Of a stretch of DNA of 64,000 bases, positions 36,876 to 60,041 are shown one piece after another. Numbering within the stretch: position 1 is the stretch's first letter; each line of letters begins with the position of its first letter. This DNA comes from Isoetes taiwanensis (Eukaryota > Streptophyta > Lycopodiopsida > Isoetales > Isoetaceae): contig JAJEKV010000023.1 of the NCBI GenBank assembly GCA_021234155.1, positions 2,594,557-2,658,556 of the forward strand, read 5' to 3'. The translations under genes and the position numbers were made by a program. The notes beneath the pieces are model-generated. The model was given only the letters and a program-made list of their open reading frames with translations. It was not told where the DNA came from and searched no databases.

Positions 36876-39800
36876 ATGATGTGACAATTCTTCTTGCTCG
36901 CTCTTAGAAACTGTGGCAATACTTACATGCTTGAGGCCGTAGAATGCAACATGTCCAAAAGACCTGTAAAGTCAATGAGAAATTAGATGCATATTTAACA
37001 AAAATAGATTATACTCACTTCATCAGTATTTGCAAAAAAATCGTACTTGCAATACAACCAACTATTGTTGCAAGATCATCATTATTCATAAGCTTTCAGG
37101 TATTCATAACCTTTCCAGTTGGATCATGAAAATCTTACTAGGTGAACACAAAATTTAGTCAGTTAAGTATAATAAAACATGAAGCCAAACTAATGAAGAG
37201 CACTTCTAAGATCTATACTACCAGTTTATTAACATTTAAGTATTTAGTTGCAACACCTATTTCAAGAGCCAGCTAACTATTTCTCGATTTTCAGTTCATC
37301 AATTGGAGATGACATAACAATTTGTCTATAATCTAATGCAAGAAATGATCCTAAATACTATGGCATAAAGACTAAATGCTAAATTACCACTCATGATGTG
37401 TTAAAACTGTAAAACCATCAGCAACATGGACAACAGAAATAAAATTGTAACCTCTAAGAGCATTTCCTACAAAGGAAAGTGCACACTTTTGATTTACAGT
37501 AACATACCTTATCGGACTCTTGTGTATTAAGGGAGAGTCCCTTTTTTTTGTTATCATTACTAGAGGAGTACGATAACTAGTTAGCAGTACTGGAGCAGTA
37601 CAGATAACTAATTATCAATACTAGTTCAACCAAGACTAAAGGATCGATGCCCTAAATCTAGCCAAGACTAAAGTATGGATGTTATAAATATATGCCATGG
37701 CCTACAGGAATGCCACTGTGCTCCTGCTGGCTGTTGCAAATGCCCTCTTAAATCATGTTGTTGCTGTTCTGCCGGCCATCTCCACTGCTCGATCGGCCAT
37801 CTCCACAATCTACCGAAACCTAAAAAATGAAAAAGAAAAGAAAAATGACAAATGTCGACAAAATAAAAGGAAAAAAAAGGAGACAAATTTTGACATTGAT
37901 AAGCCTGATAAGGCGGTTATCCATCTTCGCTTTGGATGTTACCTTTGATAAGAGCCTCGGCCCTAACGGCCTCGGCTGTTATCAGACACGTACAGACTCG
38001 GCCCTCGCAGGCCTCGTTTGATGTGTCCAAAAATGCGTGTCCTCAGCTGTACATCCTCAGCCAAATATTTGGCATGTAAGGCCGAGGCCCTGGTCTTCGG
38101 CCTTAGCGGGCCACGACCTTATGTGCCAAATATTTGGCCTCGGACGTACAACCTCGACCATGCATTTTTTATTATCAGCCTTAGCTAGACCGATAACCTT
38201 ACTTGACGGGATCACAAAATAAGAAGCTATGTTTTTTTTGGATACTGGTATAAGCAATTTTTTTAACATGTGGAAAGAAATTTGATAGGTTTTCAAGAAA
38301 GGCAGACGGGCCCAGGACTGAAATAATGAAAGCATTCAATACAAAAAACCATCAGGAACCGAAGTTTAAAAATGGCTCGAAAAAAATGAGTGACGTATAA
38401 AACTGGAGCATTTGGCAATGATTAGGTGGCTGTTTCGTCGAAAGAATCCGAATCTTGGCCTGAGAAATTTTAGGGTGCAGCACCTCATCAATGCCCAATT
38501 TGTTACCAACAATTTGAATTTACCAACAGACTTGAGGCAACAGTAAGAAATTGAATCCAAGGACTTAGAGCCGATTGCATGTCGCCAACTCTCCTCTGGA
38601 AACAACTGCAGCATCGTATGGAAAAGTTTCCTATCCTAAAGGCTATTTGCCCTGGCTGATAATGGCGCGGAAATACCAAAAACGAAATTAGGGAAAAAAA
38701 CAAAAAATGTATTAGAATTATATATACAAGAATTTGTCGCGGCGGCATTCGCCGCCACTGTGTTGTGCTTTTTAGTTTGTATTTTGCAAAAGATAAATAG
38801 AGTATGACGTTCATTTAATACCGCCATCGCTTACATTTTTTATGTGTTGCACTCAAAGCCCTGGAGTTGGCAACCTTGGGCACAACACCAAACAAATTGT
38901 GTCGAAGTCCCATTACTCAGAATAATTCTCAAGGAGTAGACCAACTTTTTTAATTGTCCACTAGCCATGTCTAGCCAAGTTTACATGTCCTAGATATTGT
39001 CAAACAGATACAATTCATTTTTTTCCCAACATGGCATGTTTCCATGCCAAAAATATTGCAACGGATGTAAAAGTACCTGGAGCTACAAAAGTAGAGGTAA
39101 AAGCTTCAAGACCAGATGCAAAAACTTCGGAATGAGGTAAATTCATCGAAAATGCAAGTAAATTCGTTGGAATGAGAGGTAAATCTGTCACTTTTGAACT
39201 TTGATAGGGATTCAGGGAAAGAAATTGTCCCAAATGGCACAGTGCTACTTGCGGATAAGGTAGAACGCAACCCAAATTGCTTTTACATCATGACAATCTT
39301 TAGGTACAACAAAAATTAAATATGGATAGAACATGCATCAAATTTACGATGCATCATAAATCAATTAAAATCTATGAAAAAGATGCATGTGAAAAAGACT
39401 TGCTTGCTTCATCTAAAGTACTTGATCAAATATTGGCAACAGAACACAATTGCCTTGGGAGGACCAGTTTGCCTCGTCCACCACTAGAGAATGGTCATCA
39501 TAACGTATCTTTCACTATTGCCCTTTATGTGATAGAGTCCTAGGAATGATATTCTTGAATAATTTTTTATGTGGTCATTTAAGACGAACATTTTGAATAA
39601 TTTCTTATGTGGAGGTCATTTAAGACGAACATCTCTATGTCACTAGGAAGATGTATTTGCAACTTGCACTATGGCACTTGATCAGCATTCTATTGCAAGC
39701 ATTCTATTGCAAGCTACGCATCTGTAAGCCCATGTTGAGCATTCTATTGCAATTCCATCTGTAAGCCCATGTTGCATGGATTCTCTGTTTCTTCAAGAAT

Positions 39801-41292
39801 GCCCTCTAAAGTTGAATCCTATAACAACGCTAAGAAGCTAGCCTTGCTCTTTGTAGTCATGTCGACATTATCTAAAGAAAACTCGATTCATTATCCAAAG
39901 TTTGTTATTACCTGTTGTTTTAAAAGCCATTCTTCTTCCAGGACAGTACCGAGTGCCACATATAAAACAGCGTAGCTAGAAATAAGTATTCTACAGTTAG
40001 ATTGTACCATCAGTTCAGTGTTTATGGCCTCATTTATTGGCCTAAAATTTCAACAAAAACAAAATAGAATGTTACATGAATTGAGTTCTATCCCAGAGAT
40101 TGCGCTTCTGATAACAAAGGTGGATTAATATTTCTATTTTTATATCAATGCAGATTCTTAGTGCTCTTTCTAGAGAGGCATGTTGAAAGAGGGGCATGTT
40201 GCCAAAAACATGGTAAGAGGTATATACTGACAATGCAAAATCCATCTTAGATAATAGAACAAAGTTTTGTCATGTAGGGCACATCCTAAAATTGACTTTC
40301 TACAAATCTCAGTCTTACAACATGTGCAATGCGAGGAGATGGAATAAGTTTAAAGTTGGTTGACATGAATAACACCAGTATATTACAAATTGATGGAAAA
40401 CTGGGTTGTCATGAACTGATAACATGATCATTTAGTTCTTGAAGTCCTTGAGTAATGTGAATGAAATTGCATCAATTGAGCCCTTTCTGTAGTGAAAAAA
40501 AGGGACCAAAGAATATAATTATTTTAAAAGTTCAAGGTGCATCAGAGGAGTACCTTATTAAACTCCCACAGTAAAGTTAGAGAGTTAGACATTGGCAAAC
40601 ATCTGATACATGCTTGGGAGCAGACCTAGGTCACCTATCCAACAAAGAGCTAGATCGAGAATTGCAAAATAACAGGCTCCAAAACTAATTAACCCAATTT
40701 TTGTAATACATCAAATGCCTTCTGACCTAATAATACAATGAAACGGATAAGTATGTTAGACAACATATGAAACCGTATAACTTAAGATGATAAACATTTT
40801 TTTTTTTTTTTTTTTTTTTTGGAGTCAAGGTGGGGTTCATATTCATACTAAAATCTTAAATACATATGGGGTATACCATAGATGGCATACATAAACATGA
40901 GCCAAGCAAAACCAAGCAAAGATGATAAACATGAGCCAAGCAAAACCAAGCCATTATCTACTGTGCATTTCTTCTATTCTAGAAATTAAGTATAAGATCC
41001 ATATACATTCTCTTATATTTTGAATGATTTTCAAAATTAAATTAATGATCACAATCATGAAATTTACTCCAGCAGCACGCAATTGCAAGATGCATAAAAG
41101 CACATAATGATTGTCCACTTTTGCAACTGACAACAGTTTAAATGGAAGAAAAGAAAGACCTACAGATCTCCACTTACAAAATGAATGCCATGGCTTAGAT
41201 GGACCTTCTTAAACCGGCATTGTTTTATCCATAGCTACTCGCCCAGCCATGAGAAGATGCAAACCCTAAGTCTTTTCTTCTTGTACTGCAGT
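36876..41292. other. Mostly unassigned DNA with weak exon candidates
   Basis: On the minus strand a short open piece at about 36926-36960 is framed by TTTACAG and GTAAGTATT, and another near 37110-37130 reads FHDPTGK before a GTTATG donor, so part of a minus-strand gene may lie here, with LINE copy 3 in an intron. An A-rich stretch, a (T)n tract at 40799-40820 and a GC-rich palindromic section (37950-38160) are present. No gene can be assigned. Confidence 0.3.
38048..38151. repeat. Inverted repeat with nested ATATTTGG palindromes
   Basis: Arms at 38060-38084 and 38114-38138 match at 22 of 25 positions in reverse complement, and each begins or ends with the palindrome GCCAAATATTTGGC. Surrounding GGCCTCGGC words add further pairing. 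It could be a small foldback element. Confidence 0.6.
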
Positions 41293-41297
41293 TTCTC
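41293..41297 (+). repeat. Target site duplication TTCTC, left
   Basis: TTCTC directly precedes the 5' LTR and is repeated at 60042-60046 after the 3' LTR, as expected for a 5-bp gypsy target duplication. Confidence 0.85.
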
Positions 41298-41535
41298 TGC
41301 TATATGCCTAAGACGTGGATGGGCAAAAAGGCTTTAGGCCTTTTTAGGCCATGTGGCTCTTTGGGCTTTGGTCCAAAGAGGGCTTTGGTCCAAGGAGGGC
41401 TTTGGTCCAAAGATGGACCAAAGGGGCGTGCATGCTATATAGTAGCTCGGGGGGAGAGCTCTGGGGCAGCTGTGTCATAGCTGAGGGCCCGTGGTTGGGT
41501 GGTGAGATAGCGTGCCACGTCAAGAGTCCATTTTA
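41298..41535 (+). repeat. 5' LTR of gypsy element D
   Basis: 238 bp starting TGCTATATGCC and ending CCATTTTA, so the 3' terminus is TA rather than CA. It contains four near copies of GGCTTTGGTCCAAAGA in tandem. A Met-tRNA primer-binding site follows one base later. Confidence 0.9.
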
Positions 41536-41536
41536 G

Positions 41537-41548
41537 TGGTATCAGAGC
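41537..41548 (+). promoter_or_regulatory. Primer-binding site, initiator Met tRNA type
   Basis: TGGTATCAGAGC one base after the 5' LTR. Confidence 0.9.
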
Positions 41549-41559
41549 ACCAAGTTTCG

Positions 41560-43133
41560 ATGGCCGGTTCCCCTGCCAATGTTAACTTGGAAGATGAAGA
41601 GCTCAAGGAAAAACTTTTTGAGCTAGAGCATGATAATTCGCTCATGAGAGAAAAACTTGCAGCTGCCGAGGCTCGAATTGCGGAGCTGCAAGAACTGGAT
41701 TCTCTGCGAGCGCAGGTGGCGCAGTTGCAGCAAGCTGCAGGGCGTCCACGTAGTGGCATCAAAACGGGTGCCAACGTCAAAATTGAATTCAAAAAGTATT
41801 CCACTGCCACTAATCCGGGATTTGAATTCATATTTTGCTAAGACTAAGGATGACGAAGACACTCAGTTATATTTTGCTGAGCGTCATCTGGATGGGGTTG
41901 CAAAGGACTGGTGGCTGGATATCCAGAAGAACCAGCCAGTCGATCAACCTATTGTTACCTTTGCGGAATTTGAAAAGCAAATCAAAAATCGTTTTTTGGG
42001 TCATAATTGGGAGCGAGATCTTATTGCTGAATGGAATAAGTTGACCCAACAAAACACGGAAACTGTTAGAGCCTTTGCCGCACGAGTTTTAAAGAAAGGA
42101 CTTCAGCTTAGTAAAAATGATACTGAGAAGTCTGAAAAACTCATGGGTGGGGTTCATCGTTGGGTACGGGCAAAGCTCGACCTGCAAGTTGCCAATCTTT
42201 CTTTTGGTGAGCTCTGTAAGATGGCAGAGAAAGTAGAGGAGGAAGGTTTGGCCCTTACTGAAGCCATTAATGCTCAACGTGGCCTCAAAGTTTCTATGAA
42301 AGAGGCGAGTGGTTTTCGGGATAAATCAATGGGATCTGCTCCAGGGTCTGGGCCATTCAAACGGCCGCATACAGACGTTGCAGATAATGAACCTGTTGGG
42401 GCCAAAGAGCCAAAGGAATCGTATCAAGCACGCAAGAAGCGGCTTATGCGGGAAGATAAGTGTTTTGTTTGTTATTCAACTGATCATAAGTTTTATGAAT
42501 GCCCTACTTATTTGGAAAAGAAGAAAGGGGAACGAAAGGAAGCTACACCTACTCTTAAGTCTGGGACTAAGAAAGAGGATAAAAGTAAAAAAGTAGCTTC
42601 TGTTCGCGGAGATGGAAAAGGGAAGAAGGTGGCTACGGTCCGGGAAAAATCGGATATGGATTCTGTTGAGAATAGTAGTCTCTTACGATTTTGGGCTACT
42701 ATTCAAGATCAAAAAGTACATGTCTTATTCGATCCGGGCAGTGAGTTTGATTTTATTTCTGCTCGCTTGGTGAAAGAACTAAAATTAACTTCTATTCCTT
42801 TATCAAGTGATGTAGAATTAGCTTCTGCTTTCTTGAATGTTACCCCTCCGCCTTCTTCATTTATGGTCAAGGATGTTGAATTTCAATTGCAGGGATATAT
42901 CTGTAAACGTTCTTTCATGGTTTCTGACCTTGGAGGTATGGATATTATTCTAGGCATGCCATGGCATAAGGCTATTAATCCTCTTATAGATTGAAAAGCG
43001 GGTATTGTTATGTTATCCTTGGAAGGGGGTAAAAAGACCTTCAAGTTTGTGAAGGATGATATTGTGTCCCCTATTCCCACAGTTTCTGTTGTACAGTTTA
43101 AACGTTTGGCAATGAAAACTCATTTTGTGTATT
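41560..43133 (+). pseudogene. gag: Gag and protease of gypsy element D
   Basis: From the ATG at 41560 the frame gives a heptad-rich start (EELKEKLFELEHDNSLMREK), changes frame at about 41800-41840, and continues as capsid (DWWLDIQKNQ, AFAARVLKKGLQLSKND), a CCHC knuckle (CFVCYSTDHKFYEC) and an aspartic protease (LFDPGSEFDFISARL, with DPG in place of DTG). A TGA stop at about 42992 sits before KAGIVMLSL. The frame is then cut at 43133 by the DNA transposon and resumes at 56852. Confidence 0.85.
43130..43133 (+). repeat. Target site duplication TATT, left
   Basis: TATT at 43130-43133 and 56848-56851 flank the inserted DNA transposon. Removing the insert with one TATT rejoins the gypsy frame through THFVY and LVVLHSK. 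Confidence 0.8.
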
Positions 43134-43164
43134 AACCATCATCCAATTAAATTGGGATTATGTC
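43134..43164 (+). repeat. Left terminal inverted repeat
   Basis: 31 bases beginning AACCATCATCCAATTAAATT and ending TTATGTC. It pairs with 56817-56847, with mismatches at two positions (C/T and A/T). A half palindrome AAATCACGCC lies just inside at 43172-43181. Confidence 0.85.
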
Positions 43165-43470
43165 AACTCCAAAATCACGCCAACCTGCTATTGTCTTCTA
43201 GGGGGTTTTTGTTTTTTTTAATCTTTTTTTTTTTACTTCAAAAATAACATAAGGTTGCGATTCACGTGTGACTTTTCATATGCGAATTGAAATATGCAAA
43301 AATGAAGAGCAAGTTGCTAACATAGATGAGACCAAAATTGCTTGCTCGATAGATGATAATATTAGGTTTGATAATAACAGATTGCATTATTTGCGAGACA
43401 ATTCCAAACTCGAAATTATCGATACATGGCACAAATATCATACAAAAATATCATATATTCCAATAAAACA

Positions 43471-44107
43471 TTAAGGGATCAATCCATGTTTTTCCACGTG
43501 TTTAACAAGGTGTGGTTCCATGTCAGCCGTTCTATCCAGTTCTGGGTATGAATCTAACACTTCATCCACCGTCATCCCCATAGCCAAATTATGCATAATA
43601 GACACAAACTTCACCAGAAAATCATCTGTCGCAAAGTTTTTTGGATCGTAAGATGGTGGATTCAGGGCCTGCGTTTGATTGTAGAAGCATTTGAGAGCAT
43701 CATCATCCACTATGATTATATCATCCTTATTCTCGATACCAAGTTCGTTTATCATGTTACTCAAGTGTTTGATGAAGATAGGCTTGCCTGTTGGATCCTT
43801 GGGATTAGTGAACTTCACACATTTGTTCTGATCCCAAAAGGTCAACCAATGTCTACGCATTTCCCCCAGTGCCTCCAAAGTATCCTTGATGTTCCTTAGT
43901 TCCATGGATGACCAAATACCAACTCGAAATAACTTGAATGCCTCATCTAGCATCTCCTTCAAGTGCGGCCGCGGATAGATCCATTTGGTGTTTGATTCTA
44001 CTGGTGTCTGATGAAACTGATCTCTAGCCACTTTATTTTTCGGAAAAGTCTTGCAAAGGACTCCATTTAGGTCGAACACCACAACCTTCTTAGAAACGCA
44101 ATGGAAG
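43471..44107 (-). pseudogene. FCP1/NIF-like HAD phosphatase domain
   Basis: About 212 residues with HAD motif 1 (D-L-N-G-V), motif 2 (IWSSM) and motif 3 (IIIVDDDALKCF) in the order of small CTD phosphatases, which remove phosphate from serine in proteins such as RNA polymerase II. The second Asp of motif 1 is Asn here, which may weaken catalysis. The stretch is open from about 44082 to the TAA at 43471. A TTTCAG acceptor at about 44108-44113 joins it to the upstream exon, but one base out of phase, so this is either a lesion or a separate gene. Confidence 0.6.
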
Positions 44108-44162
44108 CTGAAACATCAAACATGTATCCGGTCAACAAGATACGATAACACAAACAATACAA

Positions 44163-44299
44163 ACGCGCCAAGCGTGATTTGAGATAGTCAATCAAATCGC
44201 GCCCGGCGTGATTTAGTTTGACAACGAAAAATAATCAAAGCACGCCTGGCGCGATTTAATTCAAAGGTAATACAAATTAAATCACGCGTGGCGCGATTT
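44163..44299. repeat. Palindrome cluster 1, four sites in intron
   Basis: Near-palindromes of the type AAATCACGCCTGGCGTGATTT at 44163-44180, 44194-44215, 44238-44257 and 44279-44299, all in the intron between the methyltransferase-like and HAD-like parts. Centres lie about 34-43 bases apart. One example is AATCGCGCCCGGCGTGATTT. Confidence 0.8.
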
Positions 44300-44411
44300 A
44301 AATGGGCAAGGCCATACCTATCATCTTCGCCTTTGCCGTCGCATCATTCTCCCCTTCGCCACCCTTAATCTTCGCCTTCTTCTTCTCGACCGTTAGAATT
44401 GTTATTTTCTA

Positions 44412-45287
44412 TTAGTTCCGCAAGTCCTTCACAACCGACATTATTTTACTATTGATTTGGCAAACCTGCGGAATCACTAGAGCCGCCTTGGTTGCCTTCG
44501 GTTCGGTTTCCCTCACAATTACTTCATTGTTAACCTGTGAATCTACTCTATTGTTGCTTGCATCACCCGCAATGTGGGCAAAGATATTCCCTAAGTTCGC
44601 CGCCATCACAGTACTTTGAGCAGCCAGTTTAGCAGCTATTTGTTCATTACTGCTTTCCTTATCAGGCTGCAGATTACTAGTTCCCTCACCAGAAGCAATG
44701 TCCACTTTCGAATTGGACAAGTCTACGAGACTTTTGATTGCTGATGATTTCAGGTTGCCATAAGGGCCTTTAGGAGATTTGGCAAGCACATGCATGAGGA
44801 ATGGTTCAAGAAAGTCTTTGGCCTGCCCATCACTCACAAAGCAGTGACATCTTCTTGCACCCATAAGAGCCTCTGCAATAATATAACCTCCAACATGAAG
44901 CTCCAAGCAGGTTGTATCAATTGGAGCAAATGCCTCGACGAGGTAAGCAGCCATAGACGGGGGAAATCCATTTTTATTTAAGGGGCCCTTCTCCTTAGTT
45001 TGTAGCTCGTACTTGATTTCCCCACTTAGGAGGGGGTCCCGATCCTCATCCTCTTCTGACTCATCCTGTTCTGACTGATCCTGATCCGTATGAAAGAATA
45101 TAGTTCTTAAGTCTGGATCATCTAGAAGAAAACATTCCCATGCACTGCTATTGTCACCCTTGGCCTTAGCAATATCATATTCCTCGTCTGACAGCATAGA
45201 TATCATAATAAAGATCACATGTTCCATCTTTCGTTCTGTTCGCAGCTCATTATCCTTAACATCATATATTAGGCATCCCTCCCATAA
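44412..45287 (-). pseudogene. Methyltransferase-like exon segment
   Basis: The open stretch continues from GLWEGCLIYDVKDNELRT through SMLSDEEYDIA, an acidic DQSEQDESEEDEDRD segment, and PPSMAAYLVEAFAPIDTTCL followed by ELHVGGYIIAEAL and ARRCHCFVSDGQAKDFLEPF. The order substrate-facing helix, then a glycine-bearing loop, then an acidic end of strand resembles motif I of N6-adenine/N4-cytosine DNA methyltransferases. No clear DPPY motif was found, so the assignment is weak. It is followed by a low-complexity KKKAKIKGGEGE segment before a GTATGG donor. Confidence 0.4.
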
Positions 45288-45340
45288 CCCGATTGGGTTC
45301 CGCGGACGTTAAAAATTTCTTCCTTCCTTCCTTCCTTCCT
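45288..45340 (+). mobile_element. Short LINE 3'-end fragment with TTCC tail
   Basis: ATTGGGTTCCGCGGACGTTA followed by AAAA and a (TTCC)n tail matches the family 1 LINE 3' ends (ATTGGTCTCCGTGGACG) apart from a few bases. It interrupts the minus-strand coding frame; the frame is open on both sides. It is a severely 5'-truncated insertion of about 50 bases. Confidence 0.6.
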
Positions 45341-46441
45341 AATAACTTTGAGGCACTCCAGATCATGAGCAGCAGATAGTGCATGCAGATGTGACTCACC
45401 AAAAGGACAAACGATGACAATAGTGAAGGACCTCTCAGTTGTCAATCCTATACAAAATCTGGTAAAGAAGTCTTTGTAGTCCTTCCGTTCATGCCCATAT
45501 CTCCTCTCCCACCCCCCCCCAATACAAAGAGTGATATATTTTTAAGGCCGAAGTTGATTCCCGCAAGAGACCTTTGTACCCAATGGAGACTGAATCTTGG
45601 ACAGGCCGTCTTCTCCAAAGAATCTTCTTCACAAGGGCCACTTTTCTTCTCAACTCGACCAAGTACCTTAGGGGTAGAGTCTCCTTATGTTTTGTATTTT
45701 TAGCCTTCCAATTCTTTTAGGAAGTCCTTTGACCAGAATACAAACTTCTTGATGTCATCATTCTTGACCTTGTATTTGTCCAAAGAATCCAATTTCAGAT
45801 AATGCCACATCCCCCGATAGCCTTTGTAACTCAGCTCCTACAGCTGACTTCATTGTACGTACATCCTTTACATGGCTGCAGCACTCAACGAAGGACATCC
45901 TATCCTTGGTGAAAGCACCCTTCTTGTATAAGACTTCCTTCTTTAAGCACTGGTCTAAAACCCAAATGGTCTCAGCGTCGTCTAGCCCCTGAGTCTTTCT
46001 CATCTCTGTCACATTCAAGTCAAAGATGCTTACATCAACAGGAGGCACCCTACCCATAGTATCTGGCAGCTTCCTTTGTGCATAAGCGTCCCAGAATTCA
46101 TTCCACTTTTGCCATATTGCATCCTTACAAAACACAATCTTATACGAGTCTGTTGGGCCTGACCTGCTAGATGAGCTTTCAGAAGGATCTGCAATGTCAT
46201 CACCACCTTTTTTCTTTGATTTTCTTGCAGTTTTCTTCTTCTCCTGTATAATTGTCTGCGACAGAGTCCGCTCCAGCAGCTTGAAAGCCTCAGACTTTGA
46301 CCCGCCCTGTCTGGTGGGTAATGGGCAGCCATATTCCACCCACTATTGACGGGCGTGGCGCAGTTGCTCCACGTATGGACTGCCAAAAGTACAGGCATTG
46401 AATTAGTATCAGAGATTTCAATAGAAAAGATCAACCGCAAA

Positions 46442-46620
46442 GCACGCCTGGCGTGAAATGAATTAAATACCAATGCAATTCATGCCAGGCGTGCTCTAAC
46501 ATTTCACGCCTGGCCTGAACTGGTTTGATTTGATTGCACGCCTGGCGTGATTTGGTTTCATTACAGGAAATCACGCCTGGCGTGAATTGGTTTCATTTGA
46601 ATGAACGCCTGGCGTGAATA
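46442..46620. repeat. Palindrome cluster 2, six sites in intron
   Basis: Sites at 46442-46458, 46479-46495, 46501-46519, 46536-46553, 46571-46588 and 46603-46620, for example TCACGCCTGGCGTGAATT. Centres are about 25-36 bases apart. The cluster almost fills the intron between exon 2 and exon 3 of the ParB-like gene. Confidence 0.85.
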
Positions 46621-47840
46621 TGAAAGTGCTAACATCCTAACACAGTTAGTTACCTTTTGTATAGAAATGTCTTCCCCATTTCATTCAAAGTTGCACTAAT
46701 CTCAGCCAAATCTGCAGGTGAAGTATTGGCATCCAAGATACGACACCTCCTATACGCATAGTGATTGTAGAACGCGTTTTGGCCTGTTTGTTCTGCCTGC
46801 CTGATGAGGGCCTTCTGTGCCTCAACAGAATGCTGCCCGTCGATGACGACGAATTTAATGTTATCCTTTAACATTACGTCCTCGAAGTTCGTCCACTCAG
46901 CGGGCTTGTTCGAGATCATATCCCAAGGTAACACATCCGCTGGCATAGGCATTTGACCTGGATTACTAATCATGCTCTGAACAATCTCCATGGCATGTGC
47001 TGGATCATATCTTCTGCTAACATAAATGGAGCTTGGTGAACGGATGAGGGACTTCACATGGATCGCAAAAGTTTCCTTAAGACCCAATGGATAATGGTCA
47101 GCGTACTTATTCAGCTTGTTCATGGCCTCTAGCTGCGCCACCCTGTCCTGTTCATTCTCAAAAACAGAAGCCTCCATGCCTTCGACAACTGCAGGTTGAA
47201 CATCCTTCCCTAGATCTAGGACCCTCTTAGAAGCTTTCAAGTCAGCTAATTCCCTAGCTTGCTGCAAATAGTGACTTGGTGTCGGTTTAGTGAACATGCC
47301 TCTACGCACAGCTGTAACCCCTTGGCAAATAGATATTGGCGTAACTGCTACATTGGTTGGCCAACCATACTTAAAACATGTCTCACCGTTCACATCTGTC
47401 TTCATGAACGTATCCTTGTATGCAGTAGCTCTACAGTGAGTAAGTCTGAGCAGATCTTTCTTCTGCTTCTGTGTAATCTCCAAGAGCAATTTGCAGTTGG
47501 TGTCATCTTCTTCCTCACAAGAGATTAGGATCCCTTGTTTGGTCATCTTGTCTGCTTCCTTTTTCCTCGAGAAGAGAGTTAAGTCGAGCTTGCCATTTGT
47601 CTTGGCAAGGTCAACGTACCACTCGGCACCCTCGTCCATTTCCTCTTCAGGGCAGGCAGGGTCAGTGGTTGCTATAAGAATCGGCCCTTCATCATCTAAG
47701 GTGAGATCATATGGTACTGCATCTGGGTCGTCTACCCTTGACTTCTTGGCAGGATTAGAACCCGAATTATTAGGGGTTTTCTTCCTCTTGGCCACTGCAA
47801 AAGAAGATGAACATTTTTTATAGTACTTTTCAGAACAGGA

Positions 47841-47930
47841 GATCACGCTTGGCGTGCATTTAAACCTAAATTAGTACAATTCACGCTTGGCGTGTTGGTA
47901 GCTCCTATTCTTGACCATGCTATGCGTGAT
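47841..47930. repeat. Palindrome cluster 3, three sites in intron
   Basis: GATCACGCTTGGCGTGCATT at 47841-47861, AATTCACGCTTGGCGTGTTGG at 47878-47898 (one base variant of the consensus) and a diverged ACCATGCTATGCGTGAT at 47914-47930, in the intron after exon 1. Centres about 34-37 bases apart. Confidence 0.8.
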
Positions 47931-48383
47931 TTTGAAACTAAATTAGTTTGCATCCACATTTTAAGCTACATACCCTTTATGAATCCATATTTCACACTAT
48001 TTAACCTCATTGAACATTGCTATCTCCAACTGTCTAACACCGCTATATTCTATATATAAAACAGAGCAAAATTATGTTCTACAAAACGGACAATCAGAGC
48101 ATTAACTGATGGTAATACTTAAAATTCATGCAAAACATAATAACTCAAACTCATGCAAAGCATATTAACTGAAGGCAAGGAAATATCTCAAATTCATGCA
48201 AGCATAATACTCTCCACACAGTGTGTATTCTGTGGCAAATTAAATACCTTGAATAGGGTTCTGTGTATTCTGTGTATTCTGATCAACGTCCTCTGAAACT
48301 TGAGAAGAGCCGGGTTTTGAGATTCCTCTTCCACCGCTTCCTCTGCCCCGTCCGCCTCGACCACCTCTGGTTTTAGAAGACAT

Positions 48384-48748
48384 CTCCGGAGTCGCCTAGT
48401 AACAGAGTCGGAAGGTCGCCGATCTGGCCTCCGAAGCCGCGAAGAAATAGCTTTTTCTACCTGTACGAGAAATAGCGTTTTCTACCTGCACGAGAGAAAT
48501 TTGAATTTCAAGAAAACACAAAATGCAGTTTCGAAATATTCTTGACACATACAAATAATAATGACGAAGACCCGTCCGCCGACTTCTTTCATTAAGTTTT
48601 TAAAAACCAATCTACCCAAAATGTATCCCGCCAAATTTATCCCGCCTAAACGTAGTTAACCTAATCTTTCTTCTAATTCGAATTTTTCCCGACCGCCAGA
48701 GTTTCCATAGCGCCTGTGATTTCGAGAACTTAAATCAGCTTCTCAAGA
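48384..48748. promoter_or_regulatory. Divergent promoter of ParB-like and transposase genes
   Basis: The two start codons (48383 minus, 48749 plus) lie head to head 365 bases apart, so a shared control region is likely. It contains CCCGCC-type words (for example ATCCCGCCAAATTTATCCCG) but no copy of the palindrome. Confidence 0.4.
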
Positions 48749-49139
48749 ATGGCTACAGAATTCTGGTACTCATCTCATTCATATAGCTTGAACATTAATT
48801 TCCAATAGTAGGTGTCTGAATAGCAATTTTCTCGCGAGTAATCGAAAATGAATGTTTCATGTTAACTACAAATCGTAAAAAGAAAAGTAGGATTATGCAA
48901 GATCGACTCCATCGATCCGACCGTATGCTTGCCATGGAATTCCGCCGAGGGATAAGTATGTCCGAAGTTACAATTGATTAATCGGCTTCTACCGGATGAA
49001 GCTTTACCTCGCAGACACCCCGGTGGGGATACGGTTGGAGAAAGTGTTGGAACATTTGTTGCATGGCCAAGAAACCGCTTAAAAAAGGTATGTAACATGT
49101 ATTACATTGTAGAAATATAGAAGTAGACAAAATTTGTTG

Positions 49140-49872
49140 TATTCATTGGAAAAAGTTTACAATTGTATATAATCTGGATAAACTGGATAAACCGGACAAA
49201 ATCCCGCACCATCTTGTTTCAAGCCCGGGCCATTGAGTAGCCGGGCTATCGATATCTCCCATTTCCATAGCTGGGCATAGTGAACTGATCGTAAAAAACC
49301 CCAAAGAAAAACACCGTGCTCTAGCTCCACCTCCCTCGCCGCTTCCACCTCCACCTCCTCGCCCCTCCTCCCCGCTCCACCTCCTGCTCCATTGGTTGAA
49401 CCTCCAATGCATCGTATACCGCCTGCGGTAGTGGTTCCATTGGTTGAGCCATCTCCATTGCATCGTATACCGCCTGTGGTAGTGGTTCGTGTTGGGGCAT
49501 CCGAGCATAGAGGCTAACCACTAAGAAACGCAGCCCTCATTTTGAATCTCGAAGCCGACGGATGCGAGATTCACTCTCGATCAATGCATGTACCGCATTC
49601 TCGGCGATTAGATAAGAGGGCCAGCCTCCCGCGATTGCAAGGGCCCCGAGCCCGATCTGTCATTGCCCTCAAGGCTCTGCCGCCATCATCATTACTTGAT
49701 CCAAGTACTCCGTGGGTTGCAAGACCGGTGCTCCAAATGGACCGGGTGCTCTCGGCCGCGGTTCAACCGACCGAGATTGGAGCCAAACCGAGCTGGGTCG
49801 TGGTGATTGCTGGCCCAAATGTAATTCCAATGCATCTTCGCCACCAACCGGGTGATTAATGTAACTTGGCAT
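49140..49872 (-). pseudogene. Hypothetical minus-strand gene in transposase intron
   Basis: From ATG at 49872 the frame reads MPSYINHPVGGEDALELHLG and EPRPRAPGPFGAPVLQP, stops at about 49670, and continues in shifted frames through EPLPQAVYDAMEMAQPM and EPLPQAVYDALEVQPM, a 51-bp tandem duplication (49409 and 49460). No family is recognised. Two palindromic sites lie just upstream of the ATG at 49901-49967. Confidence 0.3.
49409..49510 (-). repeat. 51-bp tandem duplication, 17-residue repeat
   Basis: GCATCGTATACCGCCTG recurs at 49409 and 49460 with GGTAGTGGTTC after it; on the minus strand this encodes two copies of a 17-residue unit containing EPLPQAVYDA. Confidence 0.7.
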
Positions 49873-49900
49873 CTATCAATAGGAAGTGAGCGAGTATCGG

Positions 49901-49967
49901 TTCACGCCGGCGTGTTATATTTATTTATTTATAAACTTAGAAACTAAGAGACACGCCCGGCGTGTTT
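49901..49967. repeat. Palindrome cluster 4, two sites
   Basis: TTCACGCCGGCGTGTT at 49901-49916 and ACACGCCCGGCGTGTTT at 49951-49967, both almost perfect palindromes, immediately 5' of the minus-strand frame that starts at 49872. Confidence 0.8.
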
Positions 49968-50021
49968 AGCGTAAAAGTTGAAAGTAGGGATAGGAAAAAC
50001 TATACATGCTGCTGACTCGTT

Positions 50022-50130
50022 GAGAGGGAGAAAAAAAGCATATGCGGATAGATAATAATTTAAAACAAATTGCCCGGCCTTTATCTATTTACTTATCTAT
50101 CCGCATGTGTTTTTTTTCCCTCCCTCACGA
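50022..50130. repeat. Foldback with 30-bp arms
   Basis: The arm GCATATGCGGATAGATAA at about 50038-50055 pairs with TTATCTATCCGCATGTG at about 50091-50107, and flanking GAGGGAG and CCCTCCCTC extend the pairing to about 30 bases per side. Confidence 0.65.
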
Positions 50131-50176
50131 GTGCACGCCGAAATCGGTATTCATGTTGAAGGCTAAGGTTAGCATA

Positions 50177-50195
50177 AAACACGCTTAGCGTGTTT
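50177..50195. repeat. Palindrome site AAACACGCTTAGCGTGTTT
   Basis: A near-perfect palindromic copy at 50177-50195. The following CGTGTTTCAAATATTATCTT is repeated once in tandem. Confidence 0.75.
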
Positions 50196-50337
50196 CAAAT
50201 ATTATCTTTCGCGTGTTTCAAATATTATCTTTCAGATTTTTCTAAAGCTTTCTACTACACTTATTCATAATAGAAACTTGCATGCAATAGCATGATTAAT
50301 TCAGGAAGAGAAACTCAAGAATTTACTCGAAACAAAA

Positions 50338-50402
50338 AGAAGCAGATGAAGTTTATAAAAAACTATTCTGGTTTTCATAAACATCATCTGCTTCCTCTCC
50401 TC
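50338..50402. repeat. Hairpin with about 17-bp stem
   Basis: GAAGCAGATGAAGTTTAT at about 50339 pairs with ATAAACATCATCTGCTTC at about 50377, leaving a loop of about 20 bases. It overlaps a possible short minus-strand frame starting ATG at about 50446. Confidence 0.55.
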
Positions 50403-50692
50403 GAAAGCAAATGCAAAAGCTTGTCTTCTTGGATTAAACCCGCCATTGAGATGAAACTTAAAACTAAATGAAAACTAACCTTGAGTTCTCGAGGTCGGAA
50501 GGATTCAAGAACGGAGGACTATGCTTGTGGTTTTAATTCGAGGCTTTTCGATTCGCAGACCTTAGTCCTCTGCGCTACAGATGCTCTGTAAACTAAAAGG
50601 CGAGTCTTTTAGTAAGTTAGGAATTGCCAAAACCAAACATCTAACATTGTTGAATATAAATCTGCTCACCAAGATTTCGTGAGGGCGGATCC

Positions 50693-50842
50693 AAACACGC
50701 CAGGTTTAAAACCGCAAAAATCGTATGAAGGAAGGAAGAAAATGTAGGAACTTTGAGAGCGTGAAATGGATTTATATAGGCATAATTAGAAATAAGTTAG
50801 CGTGAATAATTGATTGCTTGAATTAACATGCCTGGCGTACGG
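50693..50842. repeat. Diverged palindrome sites near promoter module
   Basis: AAACACGCCAGGTTT at 50693-50707 keeps one half, and AACATGCCTGGCGTACGG at 50825-50842 keeps both halves with changes. Confidence 0.5.
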
Positions 50843-50845
50843 TCT
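50753..50845 (-). promoter_or_regulatory. Promoter-like module, copy 1
   Basis: On the minus strand a palindrome (about 50825-50842) is followed by a CCTATATAAATCC box (about 50770-50782) and then TTCACGCTCTCAA. The same arrangement, with clear sequence similarity, is at 51950-52038. Confidence 0.5.
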
Positions 50846-51542
50846 TCCCGCCAGACATGACATGTATATGGTATATATGGAGAATGTTGCATTTCATGCA
50901 ATAAATTCTCACGGCATTTTATTCCATTTATTGCATTTGAAAAAATAGAATTTATAAATTTTATATAGGCTAAATTAAAAATGATTTTAAAGGCAAAATT
51001 ATCAAGGCTAAAAAATGACTTGTAAGGTTGGGAAATTGTTTTAGGTCGTATAGGAAAATTTCCTATGGTTACTGTGATGAATCAGAGATTTCTCATGTGG
51101 TTGATTTATAGTGTTCCCGAGACTTTGTTGAGACAAAATTATTTTAGAGAAAACTGCAGACGAACAGGAGACAAAATAATTGGAGAAAACAGTTGGATTT
51201 AATTCAAATAATTTTATGTACAGAAAAACTGTTCGAAGAACACTGTTTGAAGAAAATTTTATGAAAACTGTTTGATTTCATTCATAAAAGTTATATGTAC
51301 AGCAGGTAAGCCCGAAGGCTTGTAAGCAGGTGCCGAAGGCTTTTCACAAAATTACATGAAAAATATGCCCGGAGGGGTGTCCAAAGCTTCTGTAGCAAAC
51401 CAAAAAACAAAAGGGGCCGCCCGGGATCTGCATCATTGATCTTCCACGTCTGCAACAAAGAAGAAAGAAAGGTGTTAGAAAAGAAAGAAAGGTGAAAAAA
51501 AAAAAAAAAAGCAGACATGCAAGCCTGGCTCATCTCTCAACC

Positions 51543-51915
51543 ATTCTAAAAACTGGTCGAATTGTCGACCTTCCTCCTCATCTTCTTCCTCCGCCCCTCC
51601 TCCTCTTTAGAGATTTCATTCTCTGTTTCAGGGTCAAGCCAACCCTGAAGCAGAGCAGTCATGTGCTCTTGAGAGGACATCTCCTCCTCTTCCTCCAACT
51701 CCTCCTCTTCCTCCTCTTCATCAGAGGAGGAATCAGAGGAGCTCAACTCCTCCTCTTCCATGTCCAATTCCTCCTCTTCCTCCTCTTCATCGAGGAGGAA
51801 TCGAGAGAGAATTGGGCAAGAAAAATCTATGGGGGATAGAGGGGGTTCTTCAACCCGACGTCTCTTTGACGAGACCTCGGGTTCTTCATGAAGTTCGAGC
51901 CGAGGTCAACGCCAT
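51543..51915 (-). pseudogene. Acidic protein with nuclear-localisation-like cluster
   Basis: From ATG at 51915 (context GCCGCCATGG on the minus strand) there is an early frame change at about 51885, then an open stretch reading ELHEEPEVSSKRRRVEE, LSPIDFSCPILSRFLL, and long Glu runs with SSSDSSSDEEEEEEE, ending EGRRKKMRRKVDNSTSF at a TAG. KRRRVE and RRKKMRRK could direct nuclear import; the acidic run could bind histones or basic proteins. It may be spliced to a further exon after a TTTGTTGCAG acceptor at about 51445. No family is recognised. Confidence 0.45.
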
Positions 51916-51949
51916 GGCGGCGTAAAAAAAAAAATTGGACGTAATGGAG

Positions 51950-52038
51950 GTCTTGAGAGCGTGAACCGGTTTATATAGGGTTAATTAGAAATTAGCTGTG
52001 AATAATTTATTGCCTCAAATAACACGCCAGCGTCATTT
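51950..52038 (-). promoter_or_regulatory. Promoter-like module, copy 2, of acidic gene
   Basis: Minus strand: palindrome copy AACACGCCAGCGTCATTT (52021-52038), spacer with TTATTCAC, then CCTATATAAACC (about 51968-51979), about 55 bases upstream of the ATG at 51915. The module is homologous to 50753-50845. Confidence 0.55.
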
Positions 52039-53788
52039 AAATTCCCCCTTGACTATATCATCTAGGGTGTATTATTATGGATAATAAATTCTCACGCCTA
52101 TCACCTATATGTCTTTTTTTTTCAGAATCATATATCCAAATTTTCGATAATTAAAATTAGGATATATTTATATAAATGTCATTTCCTTGTTGTTGCCACG
52201 AAAATTCTTGTTTTAAATGATTTCGTTTACGCCCATTGTTATTATTATATTAAACCAATTTCTTGCTTTTAAAAAAATTTGATTTACCTCTACATATTCC
52301 ATAAATGTAATGTGACTTTTTTTTATCTTATGGTGTAATAATTTTTTCCTACTCATTGACTAAAAAGGGTGCAATTTGCCTAGGTCAATGGTGCCTCTCC
52401 AACTCAAGATGGTGTGCAACATATTGAAAAGAGCAATATCAATGAAAAGCCAACTCCTAGCAAGAATGTTGAAGAAAAACAATTAGTCCTCTATAGTAGG
52501 GTGCAATGGAGGAACAAGAAGGTGAGAATCATGCACAAGTGCAACAAGGAAATAGTAGGCCAAGGAGTCATTGTGCTAGCAGATCCTGGTCAAGTTGTTA
52601 ATGATGAAAGGCTAGGGGAAGACAATATTGGTATTGCAATTTTGATGTTGGAAGACAACTGGAAAGGTAAAGGTTTGGGTGACAAGGAATGTTTTGGTTG
52701 TGTCAAGCAATTGGAGGTTCCTTGCATCATGGCATGGCCTATAAGTAGTATTCAATTTGTGGAGGATTATATTTTTCCGAGCCCCGAGGTTGTTGGGGAC
52801 AATGATTGTCTTGATATTGATCCATTGGCGGTTGGAACTCTAAACCTAGGCAAAAGGGGAGAAGTATCGGTTGCCGGACATTATCCTAGCAAAAGAGCCA
52901 AGTTGAATAGTGACACCAAATGTGAGACAATGGTGAAGGTTAGGGGCTCAGTTGTTGTTGGAGTGCTTGTATGCAATTCTTTACAATAGAACAATTGGTG
53001 GAAGCAAGAGCCACTTTTCAAGAGTACAATTGTTGATGAGAGGAGGACCTACATGTACACAATCTTCGAGCATGCACTTCAAGATGAAAGAAACCCAAAC
53101 AGAAAAAAAGATACCCTTTGCTAGGCAAATGGATATGTGCAAAGCCATGGCAGTAGTATCCATGCAATTCCAACTTCTTCATGGCATAATTGGCAAAAAA
53201 AAAAAGTGAGGGGGGAAACAGGATTGCTTTACATGGAAATAATGGTTTGTTGAGACCAACAAACTAGGACCTTGGCGCCAGGGGAGATATTTGAAAAATA
53301 TATTGATTTCAATGCAGAGTCTATGCCACACAAAAGTAGAAGGGATGAAAAGGGAAGAGCAAATGTTGAGAAAAGGTTGCCATCACATTGTACTCAAAAG
53401 AGTATTTTGGAAGAAGTGAATTCCCTACTTCGAGAATTGGGAATTCTTCCAATATCCCAACCTAGCTTTAGTAGGTTATGGAAGAAGCATTTCAATCATG
53501 TCACCATAGCAACTTCAAACAACTTTGCAAAGTGCAATTTATGTGCTAAGTTGAAGGAAACTCTTGATAAGACTGTGCAACCTAGTCAAAGGGCTAGGAT
53601 AAGGGAGCATATGAAGGACCATATGACTGACCAACTATCATGTAGATCATGTTATTGGATGTGGAGGACTTTATCCGCATTGGAACCCAATAACTATTTA
53701 TGTATTATACATGACAAGATGGACCAGCAAAAGACTTGTCTTCCACAATTCAAGTACATACCAAAGTCATGTGGAAGATCATACCCTT

Positions 53789-55134
53789 CAGCGAAAATTT
53801 TAGCGGCCCCGGCGGGCCATTTGGCCACAAATTACAGGTTGAGGAAAAATGCGACGGCCGACTTGAGTAGGATGCCTTACCTACGGACTACATGCAGATT
53901 CGCCATTTCGTGGCACTTTATTGCCTATTACGACATTAGAATGGCCAATTAAATGTTTGCTAATTGGAGTGGTATTGACTTTGGGGCCAATTTAGTCCCA
54001 AGTGAGAACTAGATATACTTATGGAATGGCCATTTAGGCCACTTCGCCAAATCCTGTAATGCCTTAACTTCGCCAAATCTTAACTCATTAAGAGGCCTCC
54101 TCATAAATTCATCACTTATGGGGGGCTAACATTATTAGAAATTTTATATCTACCGACTAGAAATAATCTCGTTCTTTTCAAAAATCAAATGCCGAGGCAC
54201 TTTTCAATCCTCTTTACGAAGACTTCGGCATCCGATTTCCAATTCAAATTCAAATTCGTACAACATGTAACTTAAATACATTTATATAGGGTAGCAACTT
54301 CTTTATGTTCAGACAACTAGCTCTATATTTAATAAGAATCTAGCTAAAAATCGCCATTTGAGCTACACATTATTAGATATTGGAAAATTTACCAAAATAC
54401 CCTTAATTGTTGACTAAATTCCCAAAAAAACCCTTTATATATTTGAAATTCCCAAAATGCCCTTGATTTTTTAGTATTTTACCAAAAAGCCCTTTTCCAC
54501 CAATAAAAGCCTGCAAATTTCTCAAATTGCCCTTTTCCACCAATATCCTGCACGTTTTCACAATAGACATTTGGGTATGGTTCTTGCGGTTATTACATAA
54601 TAATATCTAGGTTCCAAAAACTATAGCAACAATGGTTGAATTCATCAGATGCTTCTTTTGGCAAGCTCCATATGCTAAATCTTTGGAGGCCTTGTAAGAT
54701 ATCCAAAACATGAGGACAGTCAATAATGTGTTTTGAAGATTATATTTCTAAATTGTTGTGATCTGTAAGGAACACTTCCATCTGTGTAAAGAATGATCGC
54801 ATATTGTAAAAATGTGCAAGTTATTAATGGAACGGGGCAATTCGCAAGCCTTTTAGATGGAAAAGGCCTATTTGGGAAAATAGTTAAAAATTAAGGGCAT
54901 TTTGGGAATTTCAAAAATACAAAGAGCTTTTTGGAAATTTAGTCAACAATTAAGGGCATTTTTGTAAATTTCCCATAGATATTTGGTTCAAAAATCGTCA
55001 ATTGGGTTGCAGCCACATTAGAAATGAATAGGAAAAATGGCCAGTTTAGGCTACACTTTTGGGGGCATATTTTACAAGGAATGGCCAATTCATTATACTT
55101 ATACAAAATTATAGGTCCCTTAAAATTTTCCCTG
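53789..55134. mobile_element. hAT-type MITE in transposase gene
   Basis: The ends CAGCGAAAATTTT (53789) and AAAATTTTCCCTG (55134) are inverted repeats with the CAG...CTG ends typical of hAT elements, flanked by perfect 8-bp duplications ATACCCTT at 53781-53788 and 55135-55142. Taking out the element with one ATACCCTT restores the transposase frame across the site. The 1346-bp element has no transposase of its own and contains a second MITE. Confidence 0.85.
54382..54974. mobile_element. MULE-like MITE nested in hAT MITE
   Basis: Terminal inverted repeats of more than 40 bases (GGAAAATTTACCAAAATACC and its complement) at 54382 and 54974 are flanked by 9-bp sequences TTAGATATT (54373-54381) and ATAGATATT (54975-54983), one base apart. 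Long repeats with a 9-bp duplication suggest a Mutator-type non-autonomous element. Confidence 0.75.
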
Positions 55135-56816
55135 ATACCCTTTACAGATCTCAATGACTGGGGCAATCTTGCATGGGCAGAATCAAACCTACTATGGCCA
55201 TTTTAGTTTGGAGTTGTGGAGTGATGGTCCAGATTTTCATATTGGGAGTATCATGAGGTGTTTGAGAAACTATGAAAATGGATACAATGGTCACCTCCAG
55301 GACCTTACAGCTAGCCAGGCACTACATAGAGCATTGTTAGATGGAAACCCTAACAATATTGAAAAGTTCAGCAAGGCAAGGTTTAGGAAGCATGGGTCTA
55401 ATGAAAATCTTGGACCTTCAACTTCACGTGCTAAACCTCAAGATCTACCCAAAAGGTTTCTCTTGCAACTTGATAATTGTGCTGGCCAAAATAAGAACAG
55501 GTGGATGTTTTCTTTCCTATCCTACTTAACAGCTGTGGGGATATTTGAAAGAGTTAATTTAGGGTTTCTTATGCCCGGGCATACCCATGAGGATGTGGAT
55601 GCATTATTTGGCAAATATAGTTGTATATTGAAGCAGAACAAAGGACCAACTTTCCTAGGCTAATGGAAATCTTGCATGAATGCACTACTCCAAACCCTAT
55701 AGCTTCTCTCATAGAAGAAGTGCCCGATTGGAAGAGCTTTGTGGATGGTTATACATTGGATCTTGAAGGTCATTCCAGGCCTCTGCAGTTCACTTTTTGG
55801 GTGAGAGATGGGATTCCAATCTTCCAATGGAAGATGAGACCTTCAGAGGATGAGTGGAGAGGAGGGGAGGAAATATGGCGTCGAGATGAGAATGGCAAGC
55901 CTATGATACCTCTAGGTCAACCAAAAGCTTTAAAACCTAGTGAAGAAGTGAAGCAATTGGGATTGACTAAGGAAGGAATCCAAGACTATATAAAGCATTG
56001 GCAAACCAATCCAGATGACACCAACCGTGCCTTGGTGGCTTACTGAAGAAGGTGATTAACCCGTTGGGGAGATAGACACATCCTCGATGAATTGAAAGAA
56101 GGGTGGTTGCCTAAAACTAGGTGGAAGACCTTAGCAGGTGCTGAGGATTTTGATGACACTGTAAGTAGCATTCGCAAGCAATATGCTCCTCCTCCTTCTG
56201 ACAAACACTATGTTGGTCCTAAGAACAATAGGCCAAAGTTTCTAGGCATGGATGCTTATGAACCTTCCAATCGACTTGGAATGCCACCAATTTGTGGTAG
56301 TAAAGCCAGCCAGATTTAGATACATATCCAAAGTGTGGTTGGGGTTCACTATCTCCTCGATATTTGCAAAGAAGAAGGTAATATTAACTTCAACCATGTG
56401 CGGGTGGAATGGTGGTGTCCAAAGGCATCGCTTGACCAACGATCGGATAAAAGAAAGGTACTTTCGGTTGTTGGACAAAGAAATGGAGGAGAAATCCGAA
56501 AGTGATCCCGATCTTTGGCTAGACTATGAAAGTGTTTTGTACTCATGGACTCCAAACACTATTCCAGCTAGAAATGCGAGAATTACAATACCTCAGGATG
56601 TCAGGAAGAAGGCTATGATATCATTGGGGGTGCTTGAAGAAAGTTGAATAACTATGTAAATTTTTGTTATCACGTTTTTATGATATGGTGCTATATTGTG
56701 AAATATTGACTATTTTGTAAATAACATGATATTACGTTTTCATAATTTTGAGGTGAAATGTGTGAATTTGAATATGCTACTAAAAACATGCAATATGAAA
56801 TTTGTCCCAAAATTAA

Positions 56817-56847
56817 GACATAAACCCAATTTAATTGAATGATGGTT
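56817..56847 (-). repeat. Right terminal inverted repeat
   Basis: The reverse complement begins AACCATCATTCAATTAAATT and ends TTATGTC, matching the left end at 29 of 31 positions. TATT follows at 56848-56851. Confidence 0.85.
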
Positions 56848-56851
56848 TATT

Positions 56852-59757: not shown

Positions 59758-59791
59758 ACACCCTTTTGCAGCAGAGGACTGCTGCAATGTC

Positions 59792-59804
59792 AAGAGGGGG
59801 GGAA
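59792..59804 (+). promoter_or_regulatory. Polypurine tract of gypsy element D
   Basis: AAGAGGGGGGGAA directly precedes the 3' LTR, the expected primer for plus-strand DNA synthesis. Confidence 0.8.
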
Positions 59805-60041
59805 TGCTATATGCCTAAGACGTGGATGGGAAAAAAGGCTTTAGGCCTTTTTAGGCCATGTGGCTCTTTGGGCTTTGGTCCAAAGAGGGCTTTGGTCCAA
59901 GGAGGGCTTTGGTCCAAAGATGGACCAAAGGGGCGTGCATGCTATATAGTAGCTCGGGGGAGAGCTCTGGGGCAGCTGTGTCATAGCTGAGGGCTCGTGG
60001 TTGGGTGGTGAGATAGCGTGCCACGTCGAGAGTCCATTTTA
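59805..60041 (+). repeat. 3' LTR of gypsy element D
   Basis: 237 bp starting TGCTATATGCC and ending CCATTTTA. Compared with the 5' LTR I count three substitutions and one G fewer in a G run. TTCTC follows at 60042-60046. Confidence 0.9.

Follow-up and report, generated by a model that had tools for sequence, protein, structure and literature searches.

Palindrome arrays in the non-coding DNA of an Isoetes transposon as candidate binding sites for the element's accessory protein

What reads a short palindrome that is repeated throughout the non-coding DNA of a large plant transposon, and with what outcome? The question is raised by a stretch of 64,000 nucleotides of Isoetes taiwanensis (the window; assembly GCA_021234155.1, contig JAJEKV010000023.1, positions 2,594,557 to 2,658,556), in which a 13.7-kb DNA transposon carries a transposase gene, an accessory gene on the opposite strand and all of the palindromes. 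An earlier model reading of the letters, hereafter the original prediction, reported about 19 copies of TCACGCC-N-GGCGTGA outside coding exons and proposed for them a parS-like role in segregation, with transposase or repressor binding as the alternative. We find that the palindromes are real and that their placement is not due to chance. They very probably constitute element-specific arrays of candidate binding sites, and we lean, if slightly, towards the accessory protein as their candidate reader.

Scanning the window for TCACGCCNGGCGTGA with up to three mismatches gave 15 matches against 0.73 expected and a maximum of four in 100 shuffles, and 14 of the 15 lie within 44163-50860. A full weight matrix placed 17 sites in the window, and two more that lack the centre base (49902 and 52022) bring the total to the 19 first reported; the predicted clusters and single sites were recovered, except that the one listed at 50693 proved, at 50695, to be a half-site only. 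When matrices were trained with one cluster left out, the held-out sites outscored all positions beyond the transposon in 16 of 17 cases, site 47915 failing to do so, and among 7195 palindromic words of the 6-gap-6 form that occur at least four times CACGCC-N-GGCGTG has the highest ratio of observed to expected counts (20x). With splice sites placed by eye, all matrix sites are outside the predicted exons, in agreement with the original prediction, and 13 of the 17 lie in introns, where centres within a cluster are 24-43 bp apart, close to the 25-50 bases estimated at first. The three introns have 29 of their 35 CpGs inside palindromes and are otherwise 28-31% GC. Between sites of the window, identity is 0.81 in the core versus 0.28-0.29 in the spacers, and helical phasing is weak (resultant 0.40 at 10.5 bp).

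Across the 1.66 Gb of the genome (1110 contigs) the motif occurs at 8081 sites with up to two mismatches, as compared to 1016 for a reversed-pattern control. Two samples were taken. The motif-picked sample (L005-L024) comprises 10 kb around each of 20 of the 39 grouped places among the exact matches listed. The protein-picked sample comprises 20 copies (12 close, 8 diverged) chosen by hand and read for about 750 bp past accessory exon B, from a protein search that listed at least 109 exon B matches and scored 108 of 5956 candidates. In a tblastn search accessory exon B matched every one of the 20 motif-picked loci, L005 weakly (partial, 36%, E 3.4e-7). Matrix sites in these loci total 206, where shuffles gave 3.15 on average (maximum of 20 shuffles, 12), and only one of the 206 (L009:9163) overlaps detected coding sequence although coding makes up 56.7 of the 200 kb. 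All 20 protein-picked copies carry sites past exon B, 174 in total (shuffle mean 0.78, maximum of 50 shuffles 3), and the 18 copies with a placed exon C have 163 sites in the 8295 bp of intron before it and none in the 5283 bp of coding sequence after; the poorest copies are L043 with one matrix site and L038 with two. As the sites belong to the transposon, recur at the same places across its copies and exceed background, the motif is neither equally common elsewhere in the genome nor absent from other copies, the two outcomes that the original prediction had named as speaking against it.

The arrays grow and shrink. Past exon B they range from 1 to 15 matrix sites across the protein-picked copies, and the comparison of spacing among copies that the original prediction called for gives a modal value of 32 bp in the motif-picked loci (41 of 113 adjacent pairs at most 60 bp apart). 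In 84 pairs of adjacent 32-bp units the 13-bp core is 92% identical and the spacer 60%, indicating that the units share a common ancestry and that the core has been kept.

The palindrome also appears to vary between related families, which we label A, B and C, the A-type palindrome being CACGCCNGGCGTG and the C-type palindrome CGCGCC-N-GGCGCG being AAACGCGCCNGGCGCGTTT. In family B (L045 and L046, exon B 55-57% identical) the sites lean towards asymmetry, CACGCC on one side and GGCGCG on the other, and a CGCGC half is found in 16 of 25 sites, as compared to 8 of the 123 sites that twelve close copies contain (p 6e-9 by Fisher's test with half-sites as the unit of counting, 24 + 16 vs 190 + 8, the units of an array not being independent). 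Family C was found through a transposase piece 86% identical to that of the window, on a contig (C423) picked because it had no exact A-type site among the matches listed, so that its lack of A-type sites is by choice and its C-type sites are not. The upstream stretch of this copy (L047) holds CGCGCC-N-GGCGCG exactly twice and three more times with up to two mismatches (300 shuffles: mean 0.013, maximum 1), one of these palindromes lying, by eye, in the first intron of that copy's accessory gene, and a stretch 2.3 kb further on (L048) matches exon C of the window with 53% identity over 88 residues (E 1.8e-27). That these pieces form one element is deduced from distance and orientation, with 2 kb between the transposase piece and L047 unread. 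Exact sites number 68 A-type and no C-type in the motif-picked loci, two A-type in L045 and one in L046, again with no C-type. Family C thus combines a palindrome altered in both halves with a strongly diverged accessory exon and a transposase piece that is still close. Taken over three families, the third represented by one copy, the motif seems to differ along with the accessory protein.

A near-symmetric core with an odd centre, which persists between units as the spacers diverge and which differs in each half in family C, would be the expected imprint of a dimeric DNA-binding protein. As the transposase and a host factor are unlikely readers, for the reasons given below, the accessory protein remains, and our confidence in it was lowered to just above even since family C had been selected on its lack of A-type sites and family B gives a mixed picture. 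We propose that the arrays would be bound by a protein acting as a dimer, most probably the accessory protein with its ParB/DndB-like region, degenerate methyltransferase-like region and NIF phosphatase, that it would recognise its own family through the density of sites in introns and promoters, and that bound family DNA would stay expressible, as with VANC on VANDAL transposons. Binding, the identity of the reader and the outcome, be it derepression or autorepression, are all inferred. We put at about even the chance that the palindromes are arrays read by the element's own protein and keep the transposon expressible in this VANC-like manner; anti-silencing as the sign of the effect we rate marginally below an even bet. 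The observed to expected ratio of CpG is 0.98 in the intergenic region (about 1.0 over 48134-51100) as compared to 0.28-0.58 in gene bodies, exon A being an exception at 0.83, which fits long-term lower methylation of the intergenic DNA but could also be due to captured DNA of other origin.

GT/AG motifs and reading frames, inspected by eye, supplied the splice sites of the predicted accessory gene, and the boundaries used in scripts are up to about 8 bases off. Within one stretch of exon B there are weak matches to DndB (PF14072, E 0.01) and to a ParB-like PHROG (phrog_1033, E 0.077); the ParB-like protein of the original prediction was recovered to this extent, and the profile search with the divergent L045 protein gave neither a DndB nor a ParB-like match. 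Searching PDB profiles gave no ParB match, and two structure models were poor (mean pLDDT 33 and 39). At the position of the ParB box, located by eye, the window, L045 and L017 have DGQHS and L046 has DGHHS; the box reads GERR in ParB CTPases. Only inspection by eye suggests a methyltransferase likeness in piece D, which has DSKT or DSRT at the place of the expected DPPY. No relatives of exon B were found in viral_contigs, genome_contigs, phages or plasmids, nor of the D piece in phages.

Several observations weigh against the accessory protein as an array-binding, anti-silencing reader. The ParB similarity of exon B is below threshold, and none of the accessory protein pieces scanned has a Pfam match to a DNA methyltransferase. 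L008, L012 and L016, which are nearest to family B by protein (exon B mostly 78-88% identical to L045), have 23 sites of which only 6 show the CGCGC half, these loci having been chosen for an exact A-type site, and family C is represented by 5 kb from a single copy, itself selected because it lacked such sites. In intron 3 the core is less conserved than the spacer (0.81 vs 0.94, 11 aligned copies), and over all introns of 16 loci substitutions are slightly fewer in cores but indels are commoner (per bp, 0.076 substitutions and 0.028 indel events in cores, 0.085 and 0.021 in the rest). Finally, intron 2 arrays often form long inverted repeats, which a role at the RNA level could explain. In intron 1 the core is above the spacer (0.94 vs 0.91, 11 aligned copies), and CpG/GC-rich 13-mers elsewhere in the transposon accumulate 0.110 substitutions and 0.052 indel events per bp in the same 16 loci; a likely cause of the variable cores is that DNA dense in CpG is prone to mutation or to errors in assembly. 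Unpolished read errors may lie behind the indels of palindromes and of CpG/GC-rich 13-mers alike. A breakage hot-spot at the palindromes was considered, as intron 3 cores are rich in indels, and was rejected because the CpG/GC-rich 13-mers elsewhere vary more.

The same reader could act with the opposite sign, the accessory protein being an autorepressor that binds in promoters as well as introns and restrains both the expression and the copy number of the transposon. Repressors commonly bind palindromes as dimers, and each of the two related promoter-like stretches has a site directly upstream of its TATA box (50826 and 52022); however, the sites of the window are mostly intronic, and growth to 15 units in one intron seems beyond the needs of repression, so that we regard autorepression as unlikely. 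Binding by a host transcription factor or host repressor, which the transposon would exploit or suffer from, is less likely still. The short core could suit such a factor, and binding by an element protein is itself an inference, yet every fetched exact-site locus matches the transposon's own gene, and the motif varies between families that share one nucleus and its host factors.

Somewhat more improbable is a role at the RNA level, in which long intron hairpins would act in splicing, in small-RNA production or in escape from small RNAs. Intron 2 of one copy (L025:290-758) is a long inverted repeat whose RNA fold, with a 49-bp perfect stem, lies well under that of its shuffles (-231 kcal/mol, z -19.3), all 20 protein-picked copies, several with long stems, fold below a null in which sites are kept and spacers shuffled 25 times per copy (z -3.5 to -17.6), and the three introns resemble one another in how far their last site is from the acceptor (46, 54 and 50 nt, or about 48-62 nt once the junctions are corrected). 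On the same null, however, intron 2 of the window reaches only z -1.7, and several sites are intergenic, two of them upstream of TATA boxes as described. Maintenance of the hairpin by compensatory change was also rejected: arm changes in 8 copies were one-sided or different in 20 cases and matched in 4, which shows nothing beyond an old inverted duplication.

Transposase binding in the service of transposition, the alternative named in the original prediction, is very improbable. Transposase-binding subterminal repeats occur in other plant elements, and an exact half-site at 43175 adjoins the left terminal repeat, but the palindromes are far from the transposon ends: among 11 measured ends of the left type the nearest lies 0.96-1.11 kb inside in 9 and 3.2-4.3 kb inside in the other 2, and in the window copy the distance is about 1 kb on the left and 4.8 kb on the right. 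Moreover, the motif of family C has changed in the presence of a closely similar transposase piece. Neutral minisatellite-like repeats without function are the least probable explanation of all, since the common ancestry of units with 60% spacer identity and the intron 3 cores that vary more between copies than their spacers are set against adjacent-unit cores kept at 92%, a core changed in both halves in family C and the near absence of sites from coding sequence.

Table 1. Features of the transposon and its palindromes in the window (TIR, terminal inverted repeat; TSD, target-site duplication)
Feature	Position	Strand	Basis or remark
DNA transposon, 13.7 kb, contains all palindromes	43134..56847		TIRs and copy alignments
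Left TIR, AACCATCATCCAATTAAATTGGG...	43134..43164	+	94% match to right end
Right TIR	56817..56847	-	inverted repeat match to left end
Probable 4-bp TSD, TATT	43130..43133, second copy 56848-56851		read from flanks
Exact half-site TCACGCC	43175..43181	+	adjoins left TIR
Exon E, NIF/HAD phosphatase domain	43471..44107	-	PF03031, E 1.4e-15
Intron 3, matrix sites 44163, 44197, 44240, 44282	44108..44317	-	predicted; junction phase uncertain in window copy
Exons C and D region, interrupted by stop and frame changes	44318..46379	-	by eye
Intron 2, matrix sites 46442, 46480, 46504, 46536, 46571, 46603	46380..46653	-	predicted
Exon B, IDGQHS box, weak ParB/DndB-like region	46654..47794	-	stop-free open reading frame
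Intron 1, matrix sites 47843, 47881, 47915	47795..48247	-	predicted
Exon A, RGG-rich start	48248..48383	-	open reading frame, splice motifs by eye
Intergenic matrix sites	49951, 50179, 50826, 50846		weight matrix
Palindromes 49902 (no centre base) and 49951, intergenic	49902..49965
Palindrome ACACGCTTAGCGTGT, intergenic	50179..50193		weight matrix
TATA-bearing promoter-like copy 1, palindromes 50826 and 50846	50752..50860	-	promoter role by eye
Promoter-like copy 2, related to copy 1, palindrome 52022 upstream of TATA box	51952..52035	-	by eye
DUF7869 transposase gene, broken	52384..56647	+	PF25273, E 9.4e-30

The limits of the transposon (Table 1) are supported by DNA alignments of 10 of the 20 motif-picked loci that begin exactly at 43134, by a 34-bp inverted repeat that pairs 43131-43164 with 56817-56850, and by a left terminal repeat that a direct search found in other copies as well. 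The sequence that received the insertion is a Ty3/gypsy element, whose frame, by eye, runs on across the empty site and whose long terminal repeats are identical at 234 of 237 aligned positions with one gap column; as these repeats are nearly identical, the window copy must have jumped after a young retrotransposon had landed. Transposase and accessory gene are divergent in the window (plus and minus strand, respectively), as are 19 of 19 neighbouring pairs among typed matches (34 out of 109 for the accessory gene and 28 out of 150 for the transposase, chosen partly for mutual nearness).

Other features were seen in passing. The transposase gene contains, within 53953-55135, an insert (54425-54932) resembling a miniature inverted-repeat transposable element (MITE), with an inverted repeat whose arms are 84% complementary. 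A highly acidic minus-strand open reading frame (ORF) at 51546-51905, below a palindrome-bearing promoter-like stretch, is a possible third gene of the transposon, and 50285-50448 shows a near-perfect hairpin fold (z -7.19), microRNA- or MITE-like, with no Rfam match at the gathering threshold. An Rfam scan of 41000-60500 gave no match, nor did a tRNA scan of the whole window. Elsewhere in the window there are minus-strand reverse-transcriptase-like ORFs at 34476-36903, LINE-like (long interspersed element) by eye, two scanned pieces of which gave no Pfam match, and a second gag of the Ty3/gypsy type (PF03732) at 30926-31483.

Clustered palindromes beside a weakly ParB-like protein recall ParB and parS. 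Unlike these, however, the element is a dispersed chromosomal transposon, has DGQHS in place of GERR and gave no ParA-like match among the transposon ORFs scanned, a subset of all. With so weak a ParB match, the segregation role of the original prediction was rejected; what stands of its reading is a set of transposon-specific sites with an element protein as the likely reader.

Closer parallels are found among transposons. The probable 4-bp duplication TATT that flanks the window copy is shared with the Sola superfamily, Sola2 having a 4-bp target-site duplication (PMC3627910), and the only transposase found here is DUF7869. Fungal DNA transposons carrying TET/JBP (PMC12730594) likewise have an accessory gene of DNA-modification type, the enzyme being a different one. 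In Ectocarpus a ParB-like/methyltransferase accessory protein lies opposite a Sola1 transposase and may bind and modify its own transposon (PMC12477816); the large size of the element and an accessory gene on the strand opposite the transposase are common to both, whereas the window protein has a weak ParB likeness, no methyltransferase profile match and, in addition, a NIF phosphatase. The passages on the algal systems name no target sites, and our literature search, whose scope left out most subscription papers, found no target arrays described for such accessory proteins. The window transposon now offers candidate target sites for this class of proteins, earlier suggested to bind their own element, and at least 100 natural gene copies within a single genome, together with three variants of the site, open binding specificity and co-evolution to direct test.

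The nearest parallel to the arrays themselves is VANC21, an element-encoded protein that binds arrays of a motif situated, within its own family, in introns and between genes, and that causes hypomethylation (PMC5735166). As in VANDAL transposons (PMC5735166, PMC10398659), a short and dense motif occupies the non-coding parts of one transposon family, the arrays expand and contract, and the motif varies between related families along with a protein other than the transposase. Unlike them, the window transposon, which is unrelated to VANDAL, has a DUF7869 transposase (PF25273) rather than the transposase of Mutator-like type and encodes a different accessory protein, and its motif is a palindrome of 13-21 bp, as compared to the VANDAL motif YAGTATTAY in one orientation; binding and hypomethylation are described for VANDAL, and here the arrays are known from sequence alone. 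If the action is indeed VANC-like, sequence-specific anti-silencing arose more than once. We therefore raise, as a tentative and by our own estimate rather doubtful proposal, that these arrays may belong to a second, independently evolved system of sequence-specific self-recognition in eukaryotic transposons, in which a catalytically degenerate protein derived from ParB and methyltransferase and fused to a CTD-type phosphatase would bind the arrays in introns and promoters of its own transposon and maintain their activity, protein and palindrome diversifying together, inside a single genome, into families with CACGCC, mixed and CGCGCC half-sites.

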